Positions 8,989 to 18,432 of a stretch of 35,306 bases of DNA are shown in pieces; the stretch's first letter is position 1, and the number at the start of each line of letters is the position of its first letter. This DNA comes from a bacterium (GTDB lineage Bacteria > SZUA-79 > Acidulodesulfobacterales > Acidulodesulfobacteraceae). The notes below the pieces were generated by a model. It had not been told where the DNA came from. It worked only from the letters and a program-made list of their open reading frames with translations, and searched no databases. Made by a program: the position numbers and the translations under genes. Location: NCBI GenBank assembly GCA_021789605.1, contig JAJYJI010000020.1, forward strand, positions 1 to 35,306, given 5' to 3'.

Positions 8989-9034
8989 GGTATCTCAAAA
9001 ATATCTTGACGCATAATTAAACTTGCGGTATAAT
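8989..9034 (+). promoter_or_regulatory. Sigma-70 promoter with upstream GGTATCTCAAAAA box
   Basis: TTGACG (9006-9011), 17 bases, then a perfect TATAAT (9029-9034). GTG of the ORF6N reading frame starts only 7 bases after the -10, so the transcript may be leaderless. Directly upstream is GGTATCTCAAAAATATC (8989-9005), matching the shared operator-like box of the conjugative operons. Confidence 0.7.
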
Positions 9035-9040
9035 TTAAGT

Positions 9041-9198
9041 GTGAAAGATAATAAAAAAAAAATAAAAACTTAATTAAGCCCGAGACCGTTCAGGACAAAA
9101 TAATAGATGTCAGAGGAGAAAAAGTTATAATTGATAGCGACGTGGCCGCACTATACGGAGTTGAGACAAGAGATATCAGTCATAGACCCCGCGGCTAA
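9041..9198 (+). pseudogene. 5' fragment of ORF6N-domain gene, copy 1 (frameshifted and interrupted)
   Basis: From GTG 9041 a lysine-rich start meets a run of ten A's. One base more would join it to the frame PETVQDKIIDVRGEKVIID, then SDVAALYGVETRDI, the hallmark of the ORF6N (KilA-N-related) DNA-binding domain. After DI the frame runs into the element left end and stops at 9196 (HRPRG stop). The 3' half survives only at 10707-10902. ORF6N proteins are phage and mobile-element regulators or antirepressors. Confidence 0.75.
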
Positions 9199-9548
9199 AG
9201 CCGGGGGCTTGCAGAAATGTAAGCCCGCTATGATTAGGGGGCGTAGTTAATACGCAGCAGTTGTTTTAGTCACGATACCCGTGAATTACTCAAGTTCACG
9301 GCTCTATCGTCCGTCTTTAAAAGTCCTTCGGGTGCGGGGCGGTGAGACGGACTTAAAAAGCTATTACAACAACCCCGATGAGAACCTACAAGTTTAAGGG
9401 AGTTCTTGGACGAATGACGAGTCTATTCGTTGTAAAAACTCCCTAATTAATATTAAGCAGAGGTATTGGTTTATGGAAAAGGATTGCGATTTAACTAAAA
9501 ATAATCCGCCTTATATCCCCAATCAAGGGGTATTACGGCGATTGTTGA
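9181..9548 (+). mobile_element. Internally deleted IscB element with orphan omega-RNA, copy 1
   Basis: The left end starts near 9181 (CATAGACCCC). It holds the hairpin CCCCGCGGCT-AA-AGCCGGGGG, a stem GCTTGC...GTAAGC, GATTAGGGGGC, a long stem with GTCCGTCTTTAA and TGAGACGGACTTAA, then ACAACCCCGATGAGAACCTAC, matching the IscB omega-RNA at 1250-1502. About 9450 onward is right-end sequence (last iscB codons, CCCC...GGGG hairpin) with essentially the whole iscB gene deleted. It sits inside the ORF6N gene. The expected guide is the ORF6N sequence just left of 9181 (GTTGAGACAAGAGATATC region). Confidence 0.75.
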
Positions 9549-9553
9549 TAATT

Positions 9554-10138
9554 ATGGTATCAAAAAAATATTTCTTTTTATTTATTTTATTTATTTTTTT
9601 ATTACTCCCGCGCTTTGCGTCCGCCTACTCGATAGGCAATCCTAACGCCCCGGTAAAAGTAATAGAGTATTCCGACTATCAATGCCCGTGGTGCCGGAAG
9701 TTTGAATTAAATACCTTGCCGTATATTTATAAGGCTTTTATTAAAAAAGGTTACGTCTATTGGGTATTTAAGGATTATCCGCTCGTAAATATCCACGCAT
9801 TTGCTTATAAGGCGGCTAAGTTTGCCGACTGCTCGGGTAAATATTATATGAAAATGCGGTATTTATTATATAAATATCAAGGCGTTTGGGATAAGACGGG
9901 TGATATATACTCGTTTCTTAAAAGCAAAAACTTTCCCTATATCAATTCTATTAAATCCTGCGCAGGTTCTAACTATCCCATAAGTTTTATAAGGCGGGAT
10001 ATGGCGCAGGGGGATAATATCGGTATAAGCGGCGATCCCGTATTTTTAATTTACCAAAAAGGGCAGTATCAAGAGAAAATTAAAGGATATTACGGCCCGG
10101 CGTATTGGGAAAATACGCTGAGTTTATTGCTTTATTAA
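9554..10138 (+). CDS. DsbA-like periplasmic thiol-disulfide oxidoreductase, copy 2
   Basis: 194 residues, identical to the protein at 8396 (signal peptide, CPWC at 44-47, GDPVF cis-Pro loop). An open extension to 9473 is element right-end sequence (MEKDCDLTKNN). It lies in the second tandem unit; see copy 1 for function. Identity of coding and non-coding parts shows a very recent duplication, or an assembly artefact. Confidence 0.86.
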   Translation: MVSKKYFFLFILFIFLLLPRFASAYSIGNPNAPVKVIEYSDYQCPWCRKFELNTLPYIYKAFIKKGYVYWVFKDYPLVNIHAFAYKAAKFADCSGKYYMKMRYLLYKYQGVWDKTGDIYSFLKSKNFPYINSIKSCAGSNYPISFIRRDMAQGDNIGISGDPVFLIYQKGQYQEKIKGYYGPAYWENTLSLLLY

Positions 10139-10146
10139 TATTAATC

Positions 10147-10192
10147 GGTATCTCAAAAATATCTTGACGCATAATTAAACTTGCGGTATAAT
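10147..10192 (+). promoter_or_regulatory. Sigma-70 promoter with GGTATCTCAAAAA box, copy 2
   Basis: Same as 8989-9034: box at 10147-10163, TTGACG at 10164-10169, 17-base spacer, TATAAT at 10187-10192, GTG at 10199. It reads toward the second ORF6N fragment and, beyond the element, toward the DndC-NurA-HerA genes, making it a candidate promoter for them. Confidence 0.65.
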
Positions 10193-10198
10193 TTAAGT

Positions 10199-10356
10199 GT
10201 GAAAGATAATAAAAAAAAAATAAAAACTTAATTAAGCCCGAGACCGTTCAGGACAAAATAATAGATGTCAGAGGAGAAAAAGTTATAATTGATAGCGACG
10301 TGGCCGCACTATACGGAGTTGAGACAAGAGATATCAGTCATAGACCCCGCGGCTAA
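10199..10356 (+). pseudogene. 5' fragment of ORF6N-domain gene, copy 2
   Basis: Identical to the fragment at 9041: GTG start, A10 run with apparent frameshift, the ORF6N motif SDVAALYGVETRDI, then interruption by the deleted IscB element at about 10339. This copy is the one still next to its 3' half, at 10707. Confidence 0.72.
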
Positions 10357-10706
10357 AGCCGGGGGCTTGCAGAAATGTAAGCCCGCTATGATTAGGGGGC
10401 GTAGTTAATACGCAGCAGTTGTTTTAGTCACGATACCCGTGAATTACTCAAGTTCACGGCTCTATCGTCCGTCTTTAAAAGTCCTTCGGGTGCGGGGCGG
10501 TGAGACGGACTTAAAAAGCTATTACAACAACCCCGATGAGAACCTACAAGTTTAAGGGAGTTCTTGGACGAATGACGAGTCTATTCGTTGTAAAAACTCC
10601 CTAATTAATATTAAGCAGAGGTATTGGTTTATGGAAAAGGATTGCGATTTAACTAAAAATAATCCGCCTTATATCCCCAATCAAGGGGTATTACGGCGAT
10701 TGTTGA
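10339..10706 (+). mobile_element. Internally deleted IscB element with orphan omega-RNA, copy 2
   Basis: Same 368-base element as at 9181. Here the right flank is the continuation of the ORF6N gene: joining GATATCA (left) to ATAAAGCGGTC (right) restores ETRDI-N-KAVKNNP in frame. That defines the insertion as precise and without target duplication, as for IS200/IS605 transposition. Confidence 0.78.
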
Positions 10707-10902
10707 TAAAGCGGTCAAAAACAATCCGGATAAATTCCCGGAGGGTTATATCTTTGAATTAACTGGGAAAGAAAAAAACGAGGTTGTGGAAAATTTCCAC
10801 CACTTCGAAAAAGTTAAGTTTTCGCCGCACTTTCCGACCGCCTTCACCGAAAAAGGTCTCTATATGCTTGCAACTATAATCAAAAGCTCAAAAGCGATTT
10901 GA
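10707..10902 (+). pseudogene. 3' fragment of ORF6N-domain gene
   Basis: The frame KAVKNNPDKFPEGYIFEL, then FTEKGLYMLATIIKSSKAI and TGA at 10900, is the second half of the ORF6N domain. Family members usually continue well past this point (for example with an ATF-like helical segment). The gene is therefore also cut short at its 3' end, where the DndC-NurA-HerA cassette begins. Confidence 0.75.
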
Positions 10903-11999
10903 ATGTATCAATAAATAATATGTTGACAAGTTCATTATTACAAAAAACGAAAAGCGACAAGTTTTTTTTGTCTAATAAACAATTTTTTATTAATAGTATT
11001 ATTGAAAATATAATAGATATTTATAAACCTCAAAATATATTTTTGCCATTTTCCGGAGGAAAAGATTCAACGGTTCTTTTGCATAATACCATAGAAACGG
11101 TTCTTAAAATCAAGAAACCGCCAAAAATTACAATTATACACTGCGATACATTAATTGAAAATCCTATTATAGAACGTCATTCTTACGATTTTTTAAAAAA
11201 TTTAGAGAGTTTTTTTAAAGCAAATAATTTAAATTTTGAAATAGTAATATTAAAGCCAGTTCAAACTTACTGGCATAGCTTAATAGGCAAAGGGTATCCT
11301 TTACCAAATACTATGTTTCGGTGGTGCCAAAGAACGCTGAAAATTAAACCATCGGAAGATTATATGAAAACCGTTAAAGATAATGATGCAGTTGTATTCG
11401 TAGGATTAAGAAAAGATGAATCTAAATCAAGAAAAAATGATATTACAAATAATCAATTAGATAATTATCAAATAAAAAGACAATCAAAATTAAAATATTT
11501 TACTCCCATTATGGATTTGACCGAAACGGATATATGGGAATTTCTTATTTCAAATAAAACATTGTGGAAAAGTTCCTATCAAAATATCATAGATATATAT
11601 AAAGGAGCGCGAGGCGAATGTCCGTTAATACCTGAAATATCAAAAAAAAATAGTGGGTGCGGTTCTCGTTTCGGTTGTTGGATGTGTACTCTGGTTAAAA
11701 AAGATAAATCGCTTCAAAATCAATCTTTAGATAATGAAGATTTGTTGCCTTTAATAAATTTTAGAGAGTGGACTATTAATTTCGTAAAAGATGATAATAA
11801 TCATTTCAAATACATGAGAAATGGTAAACCTGCAAAAAGAGGTTGTTTAACATTTAAAGCAAGAAAGAAAATTTTTAAAGAGTTAAAAGATTTAGAAAAA
11901 AGAACTGGAATATCTGTCTTAAGCAATAATGATCTAAAAAATATTAAATCACAGTGGAAAGCGGATATGCTTTTTTTTAAAAGTAGAAATATAATCTGA
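10899..11999 (+). CDS. DndC-like PAPS-reductase-family protein (putative DNA sulfur-modification or nucleotidyl/sulfur-transfer enzyme)
   Basis: 366 residues. PP-loop SGGKDST at 52-58 binds ATP. RWCQRTLKIKP (141-151) and GLRKDESKSR (169-178) follow as in PAPS reductases. The GCGSRFGCWMCTLVKKDKS block (253-271), with Cys254, 260 and 263 plus Cys241, matches the Fe-S-cluster region diagnostic of DndC/SspD, which activates DNA for phosphorothioation. No DndA, B, D or E gene is nearby. It is followed by NurA- and HerA-like genes in the same direction. The start is uncertain: TTG 10899 overlaps the ORF6N stop (TTGA), and ATG 10920 is the alternative; neither has a clear Shine-Dalgarno. The region is visibly more AT-rich than its neighbours, indicating separate origin. 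Confidence 0.85.
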   Translation: MNVSINNMLTSSLLQKTKSDKFFLSNKQFFINSIIENIIDIYKPQNIFLPFSGGKDSTVLLHNTIETVLKIKKPPKITIIHCDTLIENPIIERHSYDFLKNLESFFKANNLNFEIVILKPVQTYWHSLIGKGYPLPNTMFRWCQRTLKIKPSEDYMKTVKDNDAVVFVGLRKDESKSRKNDITNNQLDNYQIKRQSKLKYFTPIMDLTETDIWEFLISNKTLWKSSYQNIIDIYKGARGECPLIPEISKKNSGCGSRFGCWMCTLVKKDKSLQNQSLDNEDLLPLINFREWTINFVKDDNNHFKYMRNGKPAKRGCLTFKARKKIFKELKDLEKRTGISVLSNNDLKNIKSQWKADMLFFKSRNII

Positions 12000-12034
12000 T
12001 AATTTCATTTTTATATTTCGGAGGAAAATAAAAT

Positions 12035-13177
12035 ATGGGATACAATGGAGAAAAGTCTAATCCATTAGGGGCTGATAATTTTCTACAATTATTTAATCAA
12101 TCTGATACTAAAGAAACCTGCGACATAATAAATGATATTTGCAATAATTTAGCTAAAGAACTTGATAAAAATTCTATTAAAAGATTTACTAAATATAACG
12201 GTTCTAATAATAAATTGATTACTGTTAGTGTTGATGGCGGTAATCAAGAAATATTTAGAAATTTTAAGGAAATTTCCAGCAGTATTATTATCGTAAACTC
12301 AAAATCGGACGATTTAAAAGAAACATTAGAACCATTCAGGTTAGCCCTGCAATATAAAAATTTTTTTCCAAAACTATATTCTTTTTTAAATAAAAATAAT
12401 CAAGATAAAGAATTACAACAAACTAACGCAGAAAAGTATAAAAATGTTTTTCAAAATGATTATATTAAAGTTTTTATGGAGAAAACAAATATTACATTAG
12501 ATGATATAGGTACGGCTTGTTTTTTTAATCTGCAAACTTTTACTAATACCATAAGAGATATTATAGAATGGGCATATATTGTGCAATTAGTAGATAAATT
12601 TAGAGATATAAAGGCCGTAATAGTCAAAGACGGAAGATTAGCTCAGAGCGGCGTTGAAACTACTTTTATTGATAAATTAAAAGCATATTTTAATAAATAT
12701 AACGCTTATATAATAGGCTTATTAAAAAAGAATGCAGTTTTTGACGATGGATTAGCATCTGTAATAATTTTGTCTTGGATAGAAGCGATAGAAGAATCTT
12801 TTTATTTTAAGGTTCCTTCTGGAGTAATGGATTATGTATATAGTAATAAAAGACAATGGGATTATAGCGTAGATAATTCAAAAGTTTTTGGGATAAGATA
12901 TTTTGGAAGATTATACGGTAAATGTTTTCAACCTTTTCAGTCCATGATAGCGCTTGATATTCCTTACTATTTAGAAAATAAAGAAAAAGAGATACACGAA
13001 ATTATCGGTACTATTTTTTCGCATAAATCAGTATTATATAACGGCAGTATATCGGTTATATCGGAGTCGCATATCAAATCATCTATTGCATATTCGGTAG
13101 TAAAGCAAATTGAGAATGAACTTTTAAATAAAATAGATTCTAAAGCTATTAAAAATGTCATAAAGTATATAAAATAA
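12035..13177 (+). CDS. NurA-like nuclease
   Basis: 380 residues from ATG behind CGGAGG. The NurA fold is suggested by the N-terminal ITVSVDGGNQEIF with Asp67, the central IKAVIVKDGRL with Asp199, and a C-terminal FGRLYGKCFQPFQSMIALDI segment. In NurA nucleases these Asp residues bind Mn/Mg and the enzyme resects DNA within the HerA hexamer. It sits directly before a HerA-like ATPase gene (11-base gap), the classic nurA-herA pairing, which supports the call. Bacterial HerA-nuclease pairs are known in antiphage systems. The protein is divergent, so I rely on both motif and context. Confidence 0.72.
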   Translation: MGYNGEKSNPLGADNFLQLFNQSDTKETCDIINDICNNLAKELDKNSIKRFTKYNGSNNKLITVSVDGGNQEIFRNFKEISSSIIIVNSKSDDLKETLEPFRLALQYKNFFPKLYSFLNKNNQDKELQQTNAEKYKNVFQNDYIKVFMEKTNITLDDIGTACFFNLQTFTNTIRDIIEWAYIVQLVDKFRDIKAVIVKDGRLAQSGVETTFIDKLKAYFNKYNAYIIGLLKKNAVFDDGLASVIILSWIEAIEESFYFKVPSGVMDYVYSNKRQWDYSVDNSKVFGIRYFGRLYGKCFQPFQSMIALDIPYYLENKEKEIHEIIGTIFSHKSVLYNGSISVISESHIKSSIAYSVVKQIENELLNKIDSKAIKNVIKYIK

Positions 13178-13187
13178 AGGAGAAAAT

Positions 13188-14969
13188 ATGAGCAATATTG
13201 GTTTTGTAAGAGACATCAGAACGATAAAATCTAAAACATTTTTAACATTGGTTCTTAATTATGAAGAACTTGAAAAAATTCATCTAAAGCTTGGAGAGTT
13301 TGTAAAACTCGAAAGCGGAATCCTTTTAAATAACAAAAAGTTTTATTTAGGCAGGGTTGAAAAAATTTATTATAATCCAGTTCAAAACACAAATTATTCT
13401 GGGGATCTTGCATTAAGCAAATTGAACGACGAAATAATAGATGGCGCTGCCGTAAAAAGTATTAACTTTTTACATTATGATATTTGCATATTAGGAGAAA
13501 TTAACGAAAAAGACAACAAAATATTATTCTTTCCTTCAACGAGAACCATTCCGTCCATCGTAGATTTGGCTATAACTCAATTTAAAGACGAAGAATTAGA
13601 AAAGATAATCAACGCAAGCTTAGATAATAATACTATTAATAAATCCAAAGAATTTGAAATAGGGTTCCTGCAATACGGAAGCGAACCGAAAGATATACTA
13701 AAAGCAAAAAAAACAATAAATATAGAAAATTTTATAAGAAAAAGAACTGCTAATTTAGGAAAAACCGGATTTGGAAAAAGCAATGAAAATAAAATAATTA
13801 TAACATTATTATCTAAAATGTTTCCTAATCTTTCAATGGTAATATTCGACTTAGACGGAGAATATGCTTTTGCAGACAATAAATCGTTATCTATGGGACT
13901 TTATCCCGCATTTAAAGAATTAGGAATAGAAGATAAGATAGTAGTATATACCGACAGAAAAAACGATATGTATGTAGATAATAAATCAATAAAGAGTTTT
14001 TCTATGAATTTTTATAAATCTCCAGAAATAGCAATCCAAATGTTATACGAAAAAAGAGTTGCCGAACAAAAACCAGCTAATTATATTGAGGCTATATATA
14101 ACGATATAGATAATATTTTAAATATACCCAACAGAAAAGCGTATTTATTGGCGGCTTTTAGGAAAGCTGGATTAAAAGCTGGTAACGACATCAGCGTTAA
14201 ATATGGAAATAATTATTATAAACTTGAAGATGAATTTGCTAAATATAACAATGGAAGCGAAGACGTAGAAAGCTTATTTAATTTATTAGATAAAGGTGAT
14301 AAAAGCAAAGATGACAATTCTAATGGAAATAAAGATGGAAATAAAGATACGTCCACCACTATGCTTTATAATAAATATAGTAATATATTAAGTTTTTTGA
14401 ATAAATTTCATTCGTCTGCAAATAACGAAGATATATTTAAAACTATAAGAGAAGATGTAAGAAACAATAAAATAGTTATATTAGATCTGCCTTCTATAAG
14501 TTCATATCTTTATTCTACAGTAAGTAAAAAAATAGCTTCCGAAATTTTTATCGAAGAGCAAGAACTGCTTTTAACCGGGAAAAATTACGATGTAATATTC
14601 TTAATAGAGGAAGCACAGGACTTATTAAGTAATATAAGCGAAGATAATATATGGTATAAAATAGCAAAAAGAGGCAGAAAACATGGAATAGGTTTAATTT
14701 ATTCTACGCAAACACCTAAATCTATACCAGACGAAATATTATCGCAAACGGAAAATTTTCTTATTAAACATTTAAGTAGTTCTGAAGATGTCGATAAATT
14801 AGCAAAATCAAAAATTAGTTTTTCGGCACCTATATCAGAATTTATTTTAAACGAACCTATTATTGGAACTACATATATTTATATGGAACCATATCAGCCA
14901 TTTGTAGTATCCGTAAATGTAAAAAAATTTGATGATGTTGTTGAATCATTAAAGAATAATAAAATATAA
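13188..14969 (+). CDS. HerA-like hexameric DNA translocase (FtsK/HerA ATPase)
   Basis: 593 residues from ATG behind AAAGGAG. An N-terminal HAS-barrel-like beta region (1-120, LVLNYEELEKIHLKLGEFVK) precedes Walker A GKTGFGKS (191-198), VIFDLDGEYAF (218-228), Walker B VIFLIEEAQDLL (469-480), the RGRKHGIG motif (495-502) and STQTP sensor (506-510). These are the DUF87/HerA landmarks. An Asn/Asp/Lys-rich low-complexity insert lies at about 370-390. HerA forms a ring that pumps DNA through to its partner nuclease, here the NurA-like protein just upstream. With the DndC-like gene this makes a three-gene cassette. No terminator is seen before the next gene. Confidence 0.87.
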   Translation: MSNIGFVRDIRTIKSKTFLTLVLNYEELEKIHLKLGEFVKLESGILLNNKKFYLGRVEKIYYNPVQNTNYSGDLALSKLNDEIIDGAAVKSINFLHYDICILGEINEKDNKILFFPSTRTIPSIVDLAITQFKDEELEKIINASLDNNTINKSKEFEIGFLQYGSEPKDILKAKKTINIENFIRKRTANLGKTGFGKSNENKIIITLLSKMFPNLSMVIFDLDGEYAFADNKSLSMGLYPAFKELGIEDKIVVYTDRKNDMYVDNKSIKSFSMNFYKSPEIAIQMLYEKRVAEQKPANYIEAIYNDIDNILNIPNRKAYLLAAFRKAGLKAGNDISVKYGNNYYKLEDEFAKYNNGSEDVESLFNLLDKGDKSKDDNSNGNKDGNKDTSTTMLYNKYSNILSFLNKFHSSANNEDIFKTIREDVRNNKIVILDLPSISSYLYSTVSKKIASEIFIEEQELLLTGKNYDVIFLIEEAQDLLSNISEDNIWYKIAKRGRKHGIGLIYSTQTPKSIPDEILSQTENFLIKHLSSSEDVDKLAKSKISFSAPISEFILNEPIIGTTYIYMEPYQPFVVSVNVKKFDDVVESLKNNKI

Positions 14970-14991
14970 TAATTAATAATGGAGGATAATT

Positions 14992-15204
14992 TTGTTATCC
15001 GCTTATAGTGCGAGTGTAACAAAGATTATAATATTTATAATGCAAAAAAATAAAGATTTAAAACTAAAACCAAACACTAAAGGCGTGGGTATTCAACTAC
15101 CAGCGGAACTCCATAAAAAACTAAAAATCAAAGCTACCGAGAACGATACTACGCTGAAAGAGTATATCATTAGGATATTAAACGAGTTTGTCGAAAAAAA
15201 ATAG
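14992..15204 (+). CDS. Ribbon-helix-helix (Arc/CopG-like) small regulator
   Basis: The segment GIQLPAELHKKLKIKATEND, then TTLKEYIIRILNEFVEKK, is a ribbon-helix-helix fold: a beta strand for DNA contact and two helices, like antitoxins and plasmid copy or transfer regulators. TTG 14992 follows GGAGG at 6 bases and gives 70 residues with an odd hydrophobic start; ATG 15040 gives a more typical 54 residues but lacks a ribosome-binding site. The start region GGATAA-TTTTG-TTATCC (14984-15000) is a palindrome covering the TTG, and TTGTTATCC recurs at about 15233, both plausible autoregulatory sites. No toxin partner gene is visible. It may repress the upstream cassette or the transfer operons. Confidence 0.7.
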   Translation: MLSAYSASVTKIIIFIMQKNKDLKLKPNTKGVGIQLPAELHKKLKIKATENDTTLKEYIIRILNEFVEKK

Positions 15205-15252
15205 GATATATTAATCATAGGATATATTATATTTGTTATCCTTTAATTTTCA

Positions 15253-15280
15253 GTATCTCAAAAAATATCGTATATATATA
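15253..15280 (+). promoter_or_regulatory. Shared promoter/operator box 1
   Basis: GTATCTC, six A's, TATCG, then TATATATATA. It lies 35 bases before the cytochrome-like gene and is the first of six near-identical copies in this orientation. Read as a sigma-70-type promoter, TATATA is the -10, TATCTC-A-tract-CG is a 17-base spacer, and the -35 (TTTCAG) is weak. Confidence 0.65.
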
Positions 15281-15314
15281 AAAGGTAATGTTAATATTAA
15301 GAAGGAGTAGTAAT

Positions 15315-15722
15315 ATGTGTAGCAGAGTCAGAGACAAGTCTTTTGCAATGGCTAAAAGTGCATTTAAGCTATCCTACATCGCTATTACATCGTTTTTATT
15401 CGTCATCGTAACGCTTGTTGCCGTAAGCGCCGTTTCGCAAGCCCTTACGCTTAAAAATAAGCTTAAAGCCGAGACAAAAAGGGTTAATATCTTAAAAGGT
15501 AAAAAGATAGTTTTACAGTCCAGATGCTATACCTGCCATTCTTTCGTAAAAGGCAAACGTTATGACGGAGTAGCGTCTCTGGCGTATTGGGGCGATAAGC
15601 ATTTAACCGTTAAGCAGACCGAAAAAGCGATTCGTTCTTGTAAAGCCGATGTCTATTGCTCGCAAATATTAACCGATAAGCAGGTTAAATATGTGGCGGA
15701 GTATCTAAACTCGTTAAAATAA
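15315..15722 (+). CDS. Membrane-anchored c-type cytochrome-like protein
   Basis: 135 residues from ATG 15315, 8 bases after AAGGAG (a longer frame from 15288 lacks such a site). One hydrophobic segment (about 20-41) acts as signal anchor. A haem c site CYTCH is at 71-75, followed by VKGKRYDG and a C-terminal helix VKYVAEYLNSLK typical of small class I cytochromes. After the haem site there is no Met at all, so the sixth iron ligand is not the usual one; a His (for example in KHLTVKQ) or none is likely. Two extra Cys (SCKADVYC) could form a disulfide. It probably faces the periplasm and transfers electrons; a role tied to the Dsb/CcdA proteins of this element is inference. Confidence 0.75.
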   Translation: MCSRVRDKSFAMAKSAFKLSYIAITSFLFVIVTLVAVSAVSQALTLKNKLKAETKRVNILKGKKIVLQSRCYTCHSFVKGKRYDGVASLAYWGDKHLTVKQTEKAIRSCKADVYCSQILTDKQVKYVAEYLNSLK

Positions 15723-15735
15723 TAAGGAGGATATT

Positions 15736-16040
15736 ATGAGTAATTTAGCTTTCGCAGAGAAATTGGCGACTCTCAAATTAAAATTGCCAAGTTTCGATAA
15801 GATATGTGACGCAGTTTTTTCTTTTTTACAGGGACTTTTTTTGCAATTCATATACTTTTAGAGTTAGCTTTTAATTTAATTATTATCCTTTGCGCCTTGA
15901 AATTATTTAACGCCGGCATAGATTTGTATATGCTAAGGAACGGCGGGAATATAAGTAAAGTGGTCATAGAAATAGGTGCATATTTGGCGTTCATAATACC
16001 AGCTATCGTCGTAAAAAATATAATATTAAGATATATCTAA
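15736..16040 (+). CDS. Small membrane protein encoded in two frames; apparent -1 frameshift
   Basis: ATG 15736 behind AAGGAGG starts a 41-codon frame (MSNLAFAEKLATLKLK onward) ending at TAG 15859-15861. Just before, CTTTTTTTG (15835-15843) contains T-TTT-TTG in the phase needed for -1 ribosomal slippage. After slippage the frame FAIHILLELAFNLIIILC continues to TAA 16038-16040, adding two membrane helices and ending IVVKNIILRYI. The full product would be about 101 residues. The next gene begins 18 bases on with its own AAGGAG. Either programmed frameshifting gives a short soluble and a long membrane form, or the T7 tract has lost/gained a base by mutation or sequencing error. Family unknown. 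Confidence 0.55.
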
Positions 16041-16057
16041 TATAAGGAGTGAGTAAA

Positions 16058-16675
16058 ATGTCATTAATCCAAAGGCTTAACGATTTACCGGCAGGCTCGA
16101 TGACAGCGGAATCGGTATTAGTAAATCTTGAACCGGAAATGATTTTTATTATTAAAGACAGCGAACATCCGTCGATTAACTGCAAAGTCGAAAGCGGGTT
16201 ATTATTTTTCATAGTTCAATTTGAAGATAAATACCTGCCGTTTCTTTATTATGTCGTTAAATTTGGAGACTCAAACAGGTTTATATACGATATGATAATG
16301 TATATCCACGATATAAAGCCCTTTAAAAAACTTCTTTTAAACGAACACAAATACAGTTTTTTAGACGATGGCGAAGTTAATTTTGACCGTATTATACAAG
16401 AATTAGTCGGCGATAAATTTAATCAGGAAATTATTAACGCAATAGAACTATTTGAGAAAGTAAAAAGTGTTAATAAAGGCTCTGCCGAAGATTTCTTAAA
16501 ATTCTACGATAGCAATGTATTTTGGAATTTTATCGGTAATCCCTTACAGGCGATAAATAAAGTAAAAGAATTATCCAAAAAAGGTTTAATCGTTGATTTG
16601 GTAGTCTCTAAAACAAACACGATATCCGAGCCTGAACCGCGGGGGTGCATGTCTAATACGCTGATAGGCGGGTAA
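16058..16675 (+). CDS. Hypothetical protein preceding the TraC-like gene
   Basis: 205 residues from ATG 16058, 8 bases after AAGGAG (GTG 16049 overlaps that site and is less likely). The N-terminal half is beta-rich (PEMIFIIKDSEH, ESGLLFFIVQFEDKYLPFLYYVVKF), the C-terminal half helical. There is no signal peptide or membrane segment. I do not recognise a family. It could correspond to the N-terminal part of a split VirB4/TraC-like protein, since the next gene resembles only the C-terminal ATPase half, but I see no motif proving this. Confidence 0.55.
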   Translation: MSLIQRLNDLPAGSMTAESVLVNLEPEMIFIIKDSEHPSINCKVESGLLFFIVQFEDKYLPFLYYVVKFGDSNRFIYDMIMYIHDIKPFKKLLLNEHKYSFLDDGEVNFDRIIQELVGDKFNQEIINAIELFEKVKSVNKGSAEDFLKFYDSNVFWNFIGNPLQAINKVKELSKKGLIVDLVVSKTNTISEPEPRGCMSNTLIGG

Positions 16676-16708: not shown

Positions 16709-17611
16709 TTGATTAATAGAACTATAGAACTTGAAAGGCATTTTAATACATTTGACGACAATATATTAAACTACGATTTATTTAATAATCAGCACGAAAG
16801 CAATAACCTGATAGTAGCAGGTTCGAGAAAATATGATTTCTTGAATAATTCCTTAAGGATTCATCGGGAAATTTACGCGGACGCTTTCAAAGCAATTCTT
16901 TTTAACACCACGGGAAACAATATATTTTTGCCGCCGGGATGCGAATTTGCGGAGATATTTGCGGAGATAATAGATATCGATATTTTTAATCCCGTCTGCG
17001 TCAATCCGTTTGCTTTATTAACCGACTACGATTTATTTAATTATAATACTTCGCTCTTATTCGATATGTTAGTAGATTTTCTTTACGTATTCGTCCCCGA
17101 TAGAGATAAAATAAGCACGGTTATGGAGAAAGTCGTTAAAAGGTCTATCGAGATAGCTATTAGGCAATGCTACGCCACATACGGTAAAGATTTGAATATA
17201 GAACATATATCGGTTTATCTGTCTCATCATTCGAGCGACGAGATTTCGGGTATGGTTGGAAATATAGCTCTTTTTATAAGTAAATCAGGCAGTTTTTTAT
17301 TAGGAAAACCTGACGACAGGCTTAAATTTGAAAAGCAGTTTACCGACGTAAAATTTAGCCCTGATATCTTTGACGATTACGAGCATAAGGTTTACCTTTA
17401 TAAAACAAGCGTATCTTGTATTTTAGTTAGCGCTATGTTTATCCACGCCTGCAATTACGTTTATAAAAATGAAGATGAAAATTCTAAAACCCTGCTTTGT
17501 ATCGACAGCGGCCAAAAGATTACCGGCGTTTGCAGAGACACGGATAAATTCGTAGAAAGGGCTTTTAGAAATTTTCGTCCGTATTCGGCCGGAGTTTTGC
17601 TTTTGCAGTAA
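16709..17611 (+). CDS. Degenerate TraC/VirB4-like protein lacking Walker motifs
   Basis: 300 residues from TTG 16709 behind AAAGGAGG. It follows the second half of the TraC at 33235 block by block: CVNPFALLTDYDLF matches SINPFSEIRTEKDL, LVDFLYVFVPDRDK matches LIDFIYFIGAPASL, GSFLLGKPDD matches GAFFIGKSTI, and TLLCIDSGQKITG sits where TraC has VIMDEAHRFL. There is no P-loop before the INPF region, and the Walker B acidic pair is D-S instead of D-E, so it should not hydrolyse ATP. It may be an inactive structural partner or regulator of the real TraC, or a decaying duplicate kept open. Ends just before a strong terminator. Confidence 0.6.
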   Translation: MINRTIELERHFNTFDDNILNYDLFNNQHESNNLIVAGSRKYDFLNNSLRIHREIYADAFKAILFNTTGNNIFLPPGCEFAEIFAEIIDIDIFNPVCVNPFALLTDYDLFNYNTSLLFDMLVDFLYVFVPDRDKISTVMEKVVKRSIEIAIRQCYATYGKDLNIEHISVYLSHHSSDEISGMVGNIALFISKSGSFLLGKPDDRLKFEKQFTDVKFSPDIFDDYEHKVYLYKTSVSCILVSAMFIHACNYVYKNEDENSKTLLCIDSGQKITGVCRDTDKFVERAFRNFRPYSAGVLLLQ

Positions 17612-17658
17612 TCCAAAAACAAAGTTAGCTATTAAGAATATGAGCCTCCTCTCATATA

Positions 17659-17697
17659 CCCCAAAGTTGAAGAAATTCGGCTTTGGGGATTTTTTTG
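17659..17697 (+). terminator. Rho-independent terminator
   Basis: CCCCAAAG, a 14-base loop region, CTTTGGGG, then ATTTTTTT. It closes the cytochrome to TraC-like operon and is immediately followed by shared box 2. Confidence 0.88.
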
Positions 17698-17698
17698 C

Positions 17699-17738
17699 CC
17701 TGAAATTTAAGTATCTCAAAAAAATATCGTATATATAT
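17699..17738 (+). promoter_or_regulatory. Shared promoter/operator box 2
   Basis: CCTGAAATTTAAGTATCTC, seven A's, TATCG and TATATATA, ending 52 bases before the DsrE-like gene. The conserved stretch starts directly after the terminator T-run (as does box 6), so terminator and promoter have travelled as one block. Confidence 0.68.
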
Positions 17739-17790
17739 CATATGACATTTTAATTTTTTAACTGCGGCAAAGCCGTGAAGGAGAGACGCT

Positions 17791-18432
17791 ATGCAGAAAT
17801 TATCTAACAAAACAAAGTATATCGCTTTAATGGTAGCTTTTATTTTTATTACCGTTATCACAATAATCGCAAGTTATATCAATAACGCTAATCCTAAAAA
17901 GCCCTATTCACAACTTATTAAACTTGAGCAGAAGTTCGGCGGTAAAAATAAAAAGACCGTTCTTACGGATTTAAAAATCGTAAAATCTTATTCAACGTCG
18001 GGGCAATTAACCCCGCCTAAATTTATCCCCGTCGGCAAATTAAAAGGTTTAAAATCCCCGTTAAAAATAGTTTTTGGCATATCCGGAGGCGATAAAAATA
18101 ACCTTAAAGAAACCTTAGGTAATATTTTTTATATAATCCAATACGCCGAAAAGAATAACCTGAAATACAAAGTAGCCGTGGTAATTTACGGTAAATTGGT
18201 AAGGCTATTGCATCCTACTATTCAAGACGGGTATTTAGTAAAAAACCGCATTAATACCGATATGCTTTATGCCGCAAAGCACGGAGTTAAGTTTTACGTC
18301 TGCTATAACGCTTTAATGATAAACCATTTAATCTATAAAGAAATACCTTATTTCGTAAAGCCGGTGCCTATGGGGTTATTAAAGGTTTATGAATTAAGAA
18401 AAAAGGGATATTTGTATTTTACGAATCCTTGA
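17791..18432 (+). CDS. Membrane-anchored DsrE/DsrF-like sulfur-metabolism protein
   Basis: 213 residues from ATG after GGAGAG. One N-terminal membrane helix (about 9-28), a linker, then a DsrE-type domain (about 88-213): LKIVFGISGGDKNNLKETLG, VAVVIYGKLVRLLHP, LYAAKHGVKFYVCYNALM, and the closing PMGLLKVYELRKKGYLYF. In cytoplasmic DsrE/F/H complexes this fold carries sulfane sulfur on a Cys; here one Cys (FYVCYNA) sits in the expected area of the fold. Tethering it outside the membrane is uncommon and suggests periplasmic thiol or sulfur handling along with the Dsb, TlpA and CcdA proteins nearby. It is preceded by box 2 and followed by a long palindrome. Confidence 0.8.
   Translation: MQKLSNKTKYIALMVAFIFITVITIIASYINNANPKKPYSQLIKLEQKFGGKNKKTVLTDLKIVKSYSTSGQLTPPKFIPVGKLKGLKSPLKIVFGISGGDKNNLKETLGNIFYIIQYAEKNNLKYKVAVVIYGKLVRLLHPTIQDGYLVKNRINTDMLYAAKHGVKFYVCYNALMINHLIYKEIPYFVKPVPMGLLKVYELRKKGYLYFTNP

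Follow-up and report, generated by a model that had tools for sequence, protein, structure and literature searches.

A predicted TdpABC variant with a DndC-type C subunit in a genome of the Acidulodesulfobacteraceae

The cassette and its relation to TdpABC of Thermus

The closest described relative of the gene cassette analyzed here is TdpABC of Thermus, which is represented in the Protein Data Bank (PDB) by entries 8WET, 8WFD and 8Y1K. The Tdp machinery is, by its title, the topic of a 2025 paper by An et al. in Nat Chem Biol (doi 10.1038/s41589-024-01832-w), whose proteins we take from the common name Tdp to be those of 8WET. TdpC is said to adenylate DNA and to swap in sulfur, writing a phosphorothioate, and TdpAB reportedly degrades DNA without phosphorothioate, the mark inhibiting TdpAB translocation. 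In the Dnd systems, DndC works with DndD and DndE. Our cassette lies on a stretch of 35,306 nt (hereafter the window; all coordinates are window positions) from a bacterium of the Acidulodesulfobacteraceae, assembly GCA_021789605.1, contig JAJYJI010000020.1, forward strand. Besides An et al., no paper on TdpABC was recognized by title among the literature listed; the word TdpABC also occurs in PMC10826400, but that paper concerns Burkholderia metabolite clusters.

The cassette consists of three consecutive open reading frames (ORFs) on the + strand, coding for a C subunit (10899-11999, 366 aa), a NurA-like nuclease, TdpB (12035-13177, 380 aa), and a HerA-like DNA translocase, TdpA (13188-14969, 593 aa). 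These contain the DndC, NurA and HerA motifs quoted for them in a first-pass annotation. The window proteins were scanned against Pfam, PADLOC 2.0.0, NCBIfam, PHROG and PDB sequences. As the general libraries name folds only (PAPS_reduct/DndC for C, HerA for A) and the NurA-like protein had no match in Pfam, PADLOC or NCBIfam at E ≤ 1, B was identified through the PDB TdpB (8WET_G), which it matches over residues 1-367 of 380 with an E-value of 1.3e-42. TdpA matches 8WET_A over residues 5-588 of 593 (E 1e-98). Across five TdpBs D67 and D199 are invariant, and so are the Walker A lysine K197, E474/E475, STQ.P and QTENFL across five TdpAs. The C subunit, with the motif SGGKDST, is a predicted compact DndC-type PP-loop ATP pyrophosphatase/sulfurtransferase. 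It matches PF01507 (E 2.3e-18) and PADLOC DndC (E 2.7e-66), the latter far more strongly than SspD (E 5.9e-15) or BrxP (E 1.2e-16), and it reaches 196.9 bits with the NCBIfam DndC model TIGR03183, below the curated cut-off of 290.4.

Hence the proposal of the first-pass annotation that this is a candidate undescribed system does not hold, since structures of TdpA and TdpB are already solved (8WET) and both proteins are matched near full length. The assignments to DndC and HerA were borne out by profile searches, that of B only through the PDB TdpB. Whether the cassette was already catalogued in defence databases has a divided answer: in PADLOC 2.0.0, C is recognized as DndC and A as HerA, whereas TdpB has no match, be it that of the window or that of Thermus. 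Judged by sequence, the cassette is a variant of the known TdpABC in which the C partner and the genomic place are new. It resembles the Thermus system in having TdpA and TdpB near full length, the order C-B-A and a PP-loop C, and differs in the DndC-type cysteine layout of C, which does not group with Thermus TdpC, in its host outside the Thermaceae, in its carriage by a conjugative element and in a trailing ribbon-helix-helix (RHH) gene. We file the cassette as a TdpABC variant because C differs from Thermus TdpC in cysteine layout and a clade of the two is disfavoured in the trees that hold phage types, though not in the one without them.

Residues 1-352 of the PDB TdpB, as typed, are identical to the start of the Thermus parvatiensis TdpB, and from this identity we take the family of that genome to be the Thermaceae. 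T. parvatiensis has the gene order C-B-A, the same as in the window, and the three genes lie side by side in all six fetched loci of the family, with TdpB broken in one (G434). A short record, probably a seventh locus (G447), keeps this order, with all three genes fragmented. The expected recurrence of the trio was thus seen, as DndC-like, NurA and HerA genes occur together in each Thermaceae TdpB locus read. Compared with complete Thermaceae proteins, the window TdpA is 36-41%, TdpB 25-32% and C 27-30% identical, with E-values of 2e-117 to 1e-127 for TdpA and 9e-51 to 1e-54 for TdpB.

Full-length TdpB is confined to the Thermaceae and the window's genome in the genomes sampled; the samples overlap in part and wider presence is possible. 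Of 386 genomes sampled, two had it, G194 and that of the window, and five more gave partial weak matches; it was also seen in one of 30 genomes of the window's phylum, where four others had weak partial matches. In the class of G194, 7 of 111 genomes have TdpB, and of 390 genomes around G194 a TdpA alignment matched seven at E ≤ 1e-60, which belong to a single family. Scanning genome contigs with a two-row TdpB alignment gave 40 candidate stretches, two of which were confirmed, both from Thermus. TdpB had no match in plasmid or phage collections at E ≤ 0.01. Six plasmid records matched TdpA, none covering 80% and the best with 29.9% identity. In viral contigs, single-protein and two-row searches yielded no confirmed relatives of TdpB, TdpA or C, and a five-row TdpB search gave the same result. 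The cassette extends TdpABC past the Thermaceae, among the genomes sampled, and onto a conjugative element.

HerA-NurA pairs are also known from repair (PMC9960219), and some NurA-HerA pairs of the family lack a C match (L036-L038), so that the trio could be a DNA-end-resection pair beside an unrelated 3'-phosphoadenosine-5'-phosphosulfate (PAPS) reductase. The cellular pair shares the combination of translocase and nuclease but has a repair role, no modifying enzyme and distant sequences. We consider this explanation highly improbable, as L036-L038 match the window TdpB and TdpA weakly (best E 2e-5 for B and 2e-31 for A), compared with the E-values given above for the complete Thermaceae proteins, and C accompanies TdpAB in every Thermaceae locus read. 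Nor does C group with ordinary PAPS reductases: the CysH/PAPS-reductase models of NCBIfam score at most 27.8 bits against the 196.9 bits of DndC, and the outgroup, a pair of host proteins with weak matches to C, stands apart at a support of 100/100. NurA-HerA-like pairs of this kind were seen in L036 (G011), L038 (G005), L037 (G020) and L007 (G014), all of the same genus or family; the L036 proteins have 380 and 711 aa, and such pairs are distant from TdpAB and have no C match in the compared stretches.

Affinities of the C subunit

We compared the cysteine layout over 13 aligned C rows. Common to all are RWC143 and C260xxC263. The window C and the DndC rows further share EC241P and C254G, with cysteines beside RFGCWxC, so that the window protein has C143, C241, C254, C260 and C263. 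The Thermus TdpC and phage PAPS rows combine RWC with an extra cysteine pair in an insert of the SC...GGEC type and with GCxxC. According to Rakesh et al. (PMC10853773), DndC has a [4Fe-4S] site formed by three cysteines and, apart from it, a cysteine dyad. The alignment suggests that this dyad sits in different places in the window/DndC-type and the Thermus/phage-type C. The PHROG assignments agree with this split: the window C matches phrog_424 best (4e-34, against 2e-10 for phrog_12882), and the Thermus-type copy of the Thermus phage Tsatsa matches phrog_12882 best (5e-44, against 1e-23 for phrog_424). The DndC rows also include compact proteins of 345 to 375 aa. The phage PAPS-reductase/DndC-like proteins of phrog_12882 and the Tsatsa protein are likewise compact PP-loop enzymes; they differ from the window C in their cysteine layout and have no TdpA or TdpB match near the 80 viral loci fetched.

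An AlphaFold2 model of C (second, 32-row input; mean predicted local distance difference test (pLDDT) 81.6; a first model with pLDDT 54.9 was not used) adopts a PP-loop fold. Solved folds near the model include PAPS/APS reductases, the adenylating enzymes FAD synthase and ATP sulfurylase, and TtuA and NcsA, which are [4Fe-4S] tRNA sulfurtransferases, a likeness of a predicted fold that does not by itself establish function.

For the trees of C we chose the rows ourselves, with four Thermaceae TdpCs, the solo copy of G047 and the Tsatsa copy, near-copies being omitted. Approximately unbiased (AU) tests disfavoured a clade of the window C with Thermus TdpC at p 0.0027 in a set of 27 rows. The p-value was 0.043 in a 26-row set, which has four rows more than the former but lacks five of its members (two host and three fused plasmid proteins), and 0.0067 in the 25 rows left after dropping L068. 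A 36-row set with ten viral rows added (11 examined from 80 kept loci; L107 was dropped as its trimming motif is absent) gave p 0.0188, and without the long rows L097 and L068 the remaining 34 gave p 0.0004. A p-value of 1.2e-5 was discarded since a Thermus-type viral row lay outside the tested clade; with that row inside, p is 0.0188. In trees without host outgroup, the window C falls on the DndC side with supports of 100/99 (26 rows), 100/100 and 99/94 (starred sets of up to 16 rows), and one further such tree has a weak 62/97 split with the window C again on the DndC side. Taken with the cysteine layout, the trees that include phage types indicate that C is not a Thermus TdpC in the narrow sense.

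Several results weigh against this placement. In the 20-row set, from which L068 and five phage-type rows were dropped, the clade of window and Thermus was not rejected (p 0.396), and a wider clade of window, Thermus and phage types was not rejected in three tests (p 0.448, 0.473 and 0.196). A tree rooted on the two host proteins puts the window C outside DndC, TdpC and phage types (84/73), and the window C is a long, AT-biased branch.

We think it rather likely that either the window's lineage or that of the Thermaceae exchanged its C gene. Relative to T. parvatiensis, C has the highest identity of the three subunits in G454 (C 70%, A 57% and B 49%) and in G442 (C 65%, A 52%, B 41%) but the lowest in the window (A 36%, B 29%, C 27%). 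Otherwise, the window C may be an early branch that kept the DndC layout. C would then never have been exchanged: the ancestral TdpC would have had the layout retained here, the branch of Thermaceae and phages would have changed it, and phages would have captured tdpC from this branch. The wider clade that was not rejected, the conserved order C-B-A and the outside position in the rooted tree are in favor of this history, which we hold to be possible yet doubtful, as the trees without host outgroup place the window C on the DndC side and the conservation of C drops from best within the compared Thermaceae to least between them and the window. Under a history without exchange, the function would be the one proposed below.

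TdpC-like genes also occur in phages. In the Thermus phage Tsatsa (PQ109078.1, L071 1710-2669) such a gene is present, apparently without TdpAB; its protein shares 86% identity with TdpC of T. parvatiensis across 87% of the latter, the record names no TdpA or TdpB, and TdpB is without match in the phage collection. The PAPS reductase of Tsatsa has been flagged as worth study, with Tdp unmentioned in the section concerned (PMC11437467, section 3.7). A further TdpC-like gene lies in a phage-type locus of G047 (L067 3532-4590), a genome with no TdpB or TdpA match, and a viral contig copy (L098, approximately 1717-2745) groups with those of Tsatsa and G047 and has no A or B match in 6.7 kb. Searching viral sequences with a 13-row C alignment gave at least 159 relatives, and the fetched stretches of the 80 loci kept had no TdpA, TdpB or RHH match at E ≤ 0.01. 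The phage-borne genes suggest a possible counter-defence, in which phages would mark their own DNA against TdpAB. Compact DndC/PAPS-like genes were also seen on a Deinococcus plasmid (L072 5893-7074) and in two phages (L077, L078), directly behind DNA cytosine methyltransferase genes.

Proposed function

The window encodes the F-type transfer proteins TraE, TraK, TrbI, DsbC and TraV, and the cassette is therefore read as AT-rich cargo of an F-type conjugative element. In our judgment it is probably a TdpABC-type system that tells self from non-self DNA. The Tdp mechanism is carried over to the window by homology, strongly for A and B and by family only for C. C would adenylate a DNA backbone phosphate with ATP, whereupon sulfur would replace a non-bridging oxygen. 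The sulfur may come from a housekeeping NifS/IscS-like desulfurase, passed over the cysteines of C beside an Fe-S cluster; the genome has two NifS/IscS-like genes, which makes them a possible source. TdpA is predicted to be a hexameric HerA-type motor that feeds duplex DNA into the nuclease TdpB. Phosphorothioates would stall TdpA, such that modified host DNA would survive and incoming unmodified DNA would be degraded. The first-pass annotation had guessed that C modifies DNA and that HerA-NurA degrades unmarked DNA, which fits the mechanism reported for TdpABC.

Phosphorothioate and nuclease activity are predictions in this reading, which follows the mechanism reportedly described by An et al. 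2025. Speaking against it, DndD, a partner of DndC in the Dnd systems, was not found: the window's genome has no match at E ≤ 0.001, in a search whose control matched 9 of 14 genomes, none above the cut-off. That DndC is the only Dnd-type component, as noted earlier, was confirmed in so far as no DndA, DndB, DndD or DndE is among the adjacent genes; the search of the genome for DndE gave no match but is uninformative, since the control genomes gave none either.

Given the DndC-type C, the cassette could also be what is left of a Dnd system, HerA-NurA having taken the place of DndD/E/F/G/H. The window C resembles DndC of DndABCDE in family score and cysteines, whereas TdpAB stands in place of DndDE/DndFGH. 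Since A and B are members of the Tdp family, more is explained by a TdpABC whose C is a variant, and with DndD not found in the genome a degenerate Dnd system is very unlikely. A natural hybrid of Dnd and Tdp is a more tentative extension of the TdpABC-type reading. TdpAB would be a portable read-out of missing phosphorothioate, joined to a writer of the DndC lineage that works without DndD and DndE, and the trailing RHH gene might supply DndE-like specificity; DndE has been described as a two-RHH protein (PMC10853773). If C truly works with TdpAB, a mark-writing enzyme and a mark-reading degradation module for phosphorothioates would be recombinable, and the cassette would offer a natural case for testing how much DndC achieves in the absence of DndD and DndE.

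Alternatively, the cassette may serve the mobile element rather than the host, with C marking the element's own DNA and TdpAB removing competing plasmids or elements that enter the cell. The carriage of the cassette as cargo by an element that has F-type transfer genes, the single full-length TdpB among 30 genomes of the phylum and the phages that have a TdpC-like gene alone are in line with this idea. It is, however, compatible with host defence and the target is not readable from sequence, and we regard it as unlikely in this form.

Genomic setting of the cassette

As described earlier, the block is more AT-rich than its surroundings, with a GC content of 0.271 in 10899-15204 and 0.378 in the rest of the window. 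GC content at third codon positions (GC3) is 0.202, 0.189 and 0.204 for C, B and A, compared with a mean of 0.401 (standard deviation 0.044, minimum 0.297) in our selection of 31 other ORFs from the window. The RHH gene (14992-15204, + strand), which begins 22 nt past tdpA, has a GC3 of 0.324, nearer to the element than to the trio. This Arc/CopG-like gene was correctly noted downstream of the trio, with matches to Pfam RHH_10 (E 8.1e-5, below the gathering score) and to a PHROG Arc-like repressor (E 5.9e-7). It had no Pfam DndE match at E ≤ 1 and no tblastn match in the T. parvatiensis locus at E ≤ 1e-3. The latter and its GC3 disfavour an integral fourth subunit, and its membership in the cassette is doubtful.

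C and B are separated by 35 nt and B and A by 10 nt, and Shine-Dalgarno-like GGAGG/GGAG precede B and A. Candidate starts of C are TTG at 10899 and ATG at 10920, neither with a clear Shine-Dalgarno sequence by eye. The best + strand promoter candidate upstream of the operon is a putative TTGACG-17-TATAAT site (10164-10192, + strand; 11 of 12 consensus matches), in a scan whose overall yield is close to that expected by chance (37 sites against 31.9).

An ORF6N gene fragment (10244-10902, + strand) precedes the cassette and is truncated at its left edge. It matches a 196-aa copy elsewhere in the genome, with an alignment that ends at 10896. The reported insertion into a truncated ORF6N gene therefore stands for the left side. 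On the right, a blastn comparison of 9901-16200 with the 196-aa copy gave, among the matches listed, none to the C-terminal part of ORF6N, so a clean insertion is not demonstrated. Inverted repeats in 10700-15400, inspected as possible transposon ends, are AT-rich and resemble chance matches, and no target-site duplication was demonstrated there. The right flank, used as a query, had matches in 11 of 16 genomes of the genus; those in genomes other than the window's own were pieces of about 240 bp or less.

The ORF6N fragment is split by a HEARO RNA (10337-10547), one of three in the window, the others lying at 1249-1479 and 9179-9389; the one at 1249-1479 extends over the beginning of an RRXRR/HNH gene (1326-2702). 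Two identical 560-bp copies (8992-9551 and 10150-10709, 1158 bp apart) contain the promoter-like site, the ORF6N start and a HEARO RNA, and two DsbA-like genes with equal Thioredoxin_4 scores (8309 and 9473) lie near them. The copies and the DsbA-like pair point to a recent tandem duplication.

Topoisomerase, SSB, RRXRR/HNH and TnpB-like genes are also present in the window, and ten further window proteins found nothing in PADLOC at E ≤ 0.001. A promoter-like repeat of approximately 36-50 bp with the core AAGTATCTCAAAAAA..GCGTATATATA occurs at 15245, 17703, 21190, 24098, 27912 and 33152, preceding six apparent gene starts of the conjugative element, and is perhaps an element-specific control site. 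Finally, 17350-18432 is 94% identical to a stretch on another contig of the same genome (G000:C21:6660-7745), which perhaps belongs to a related element.

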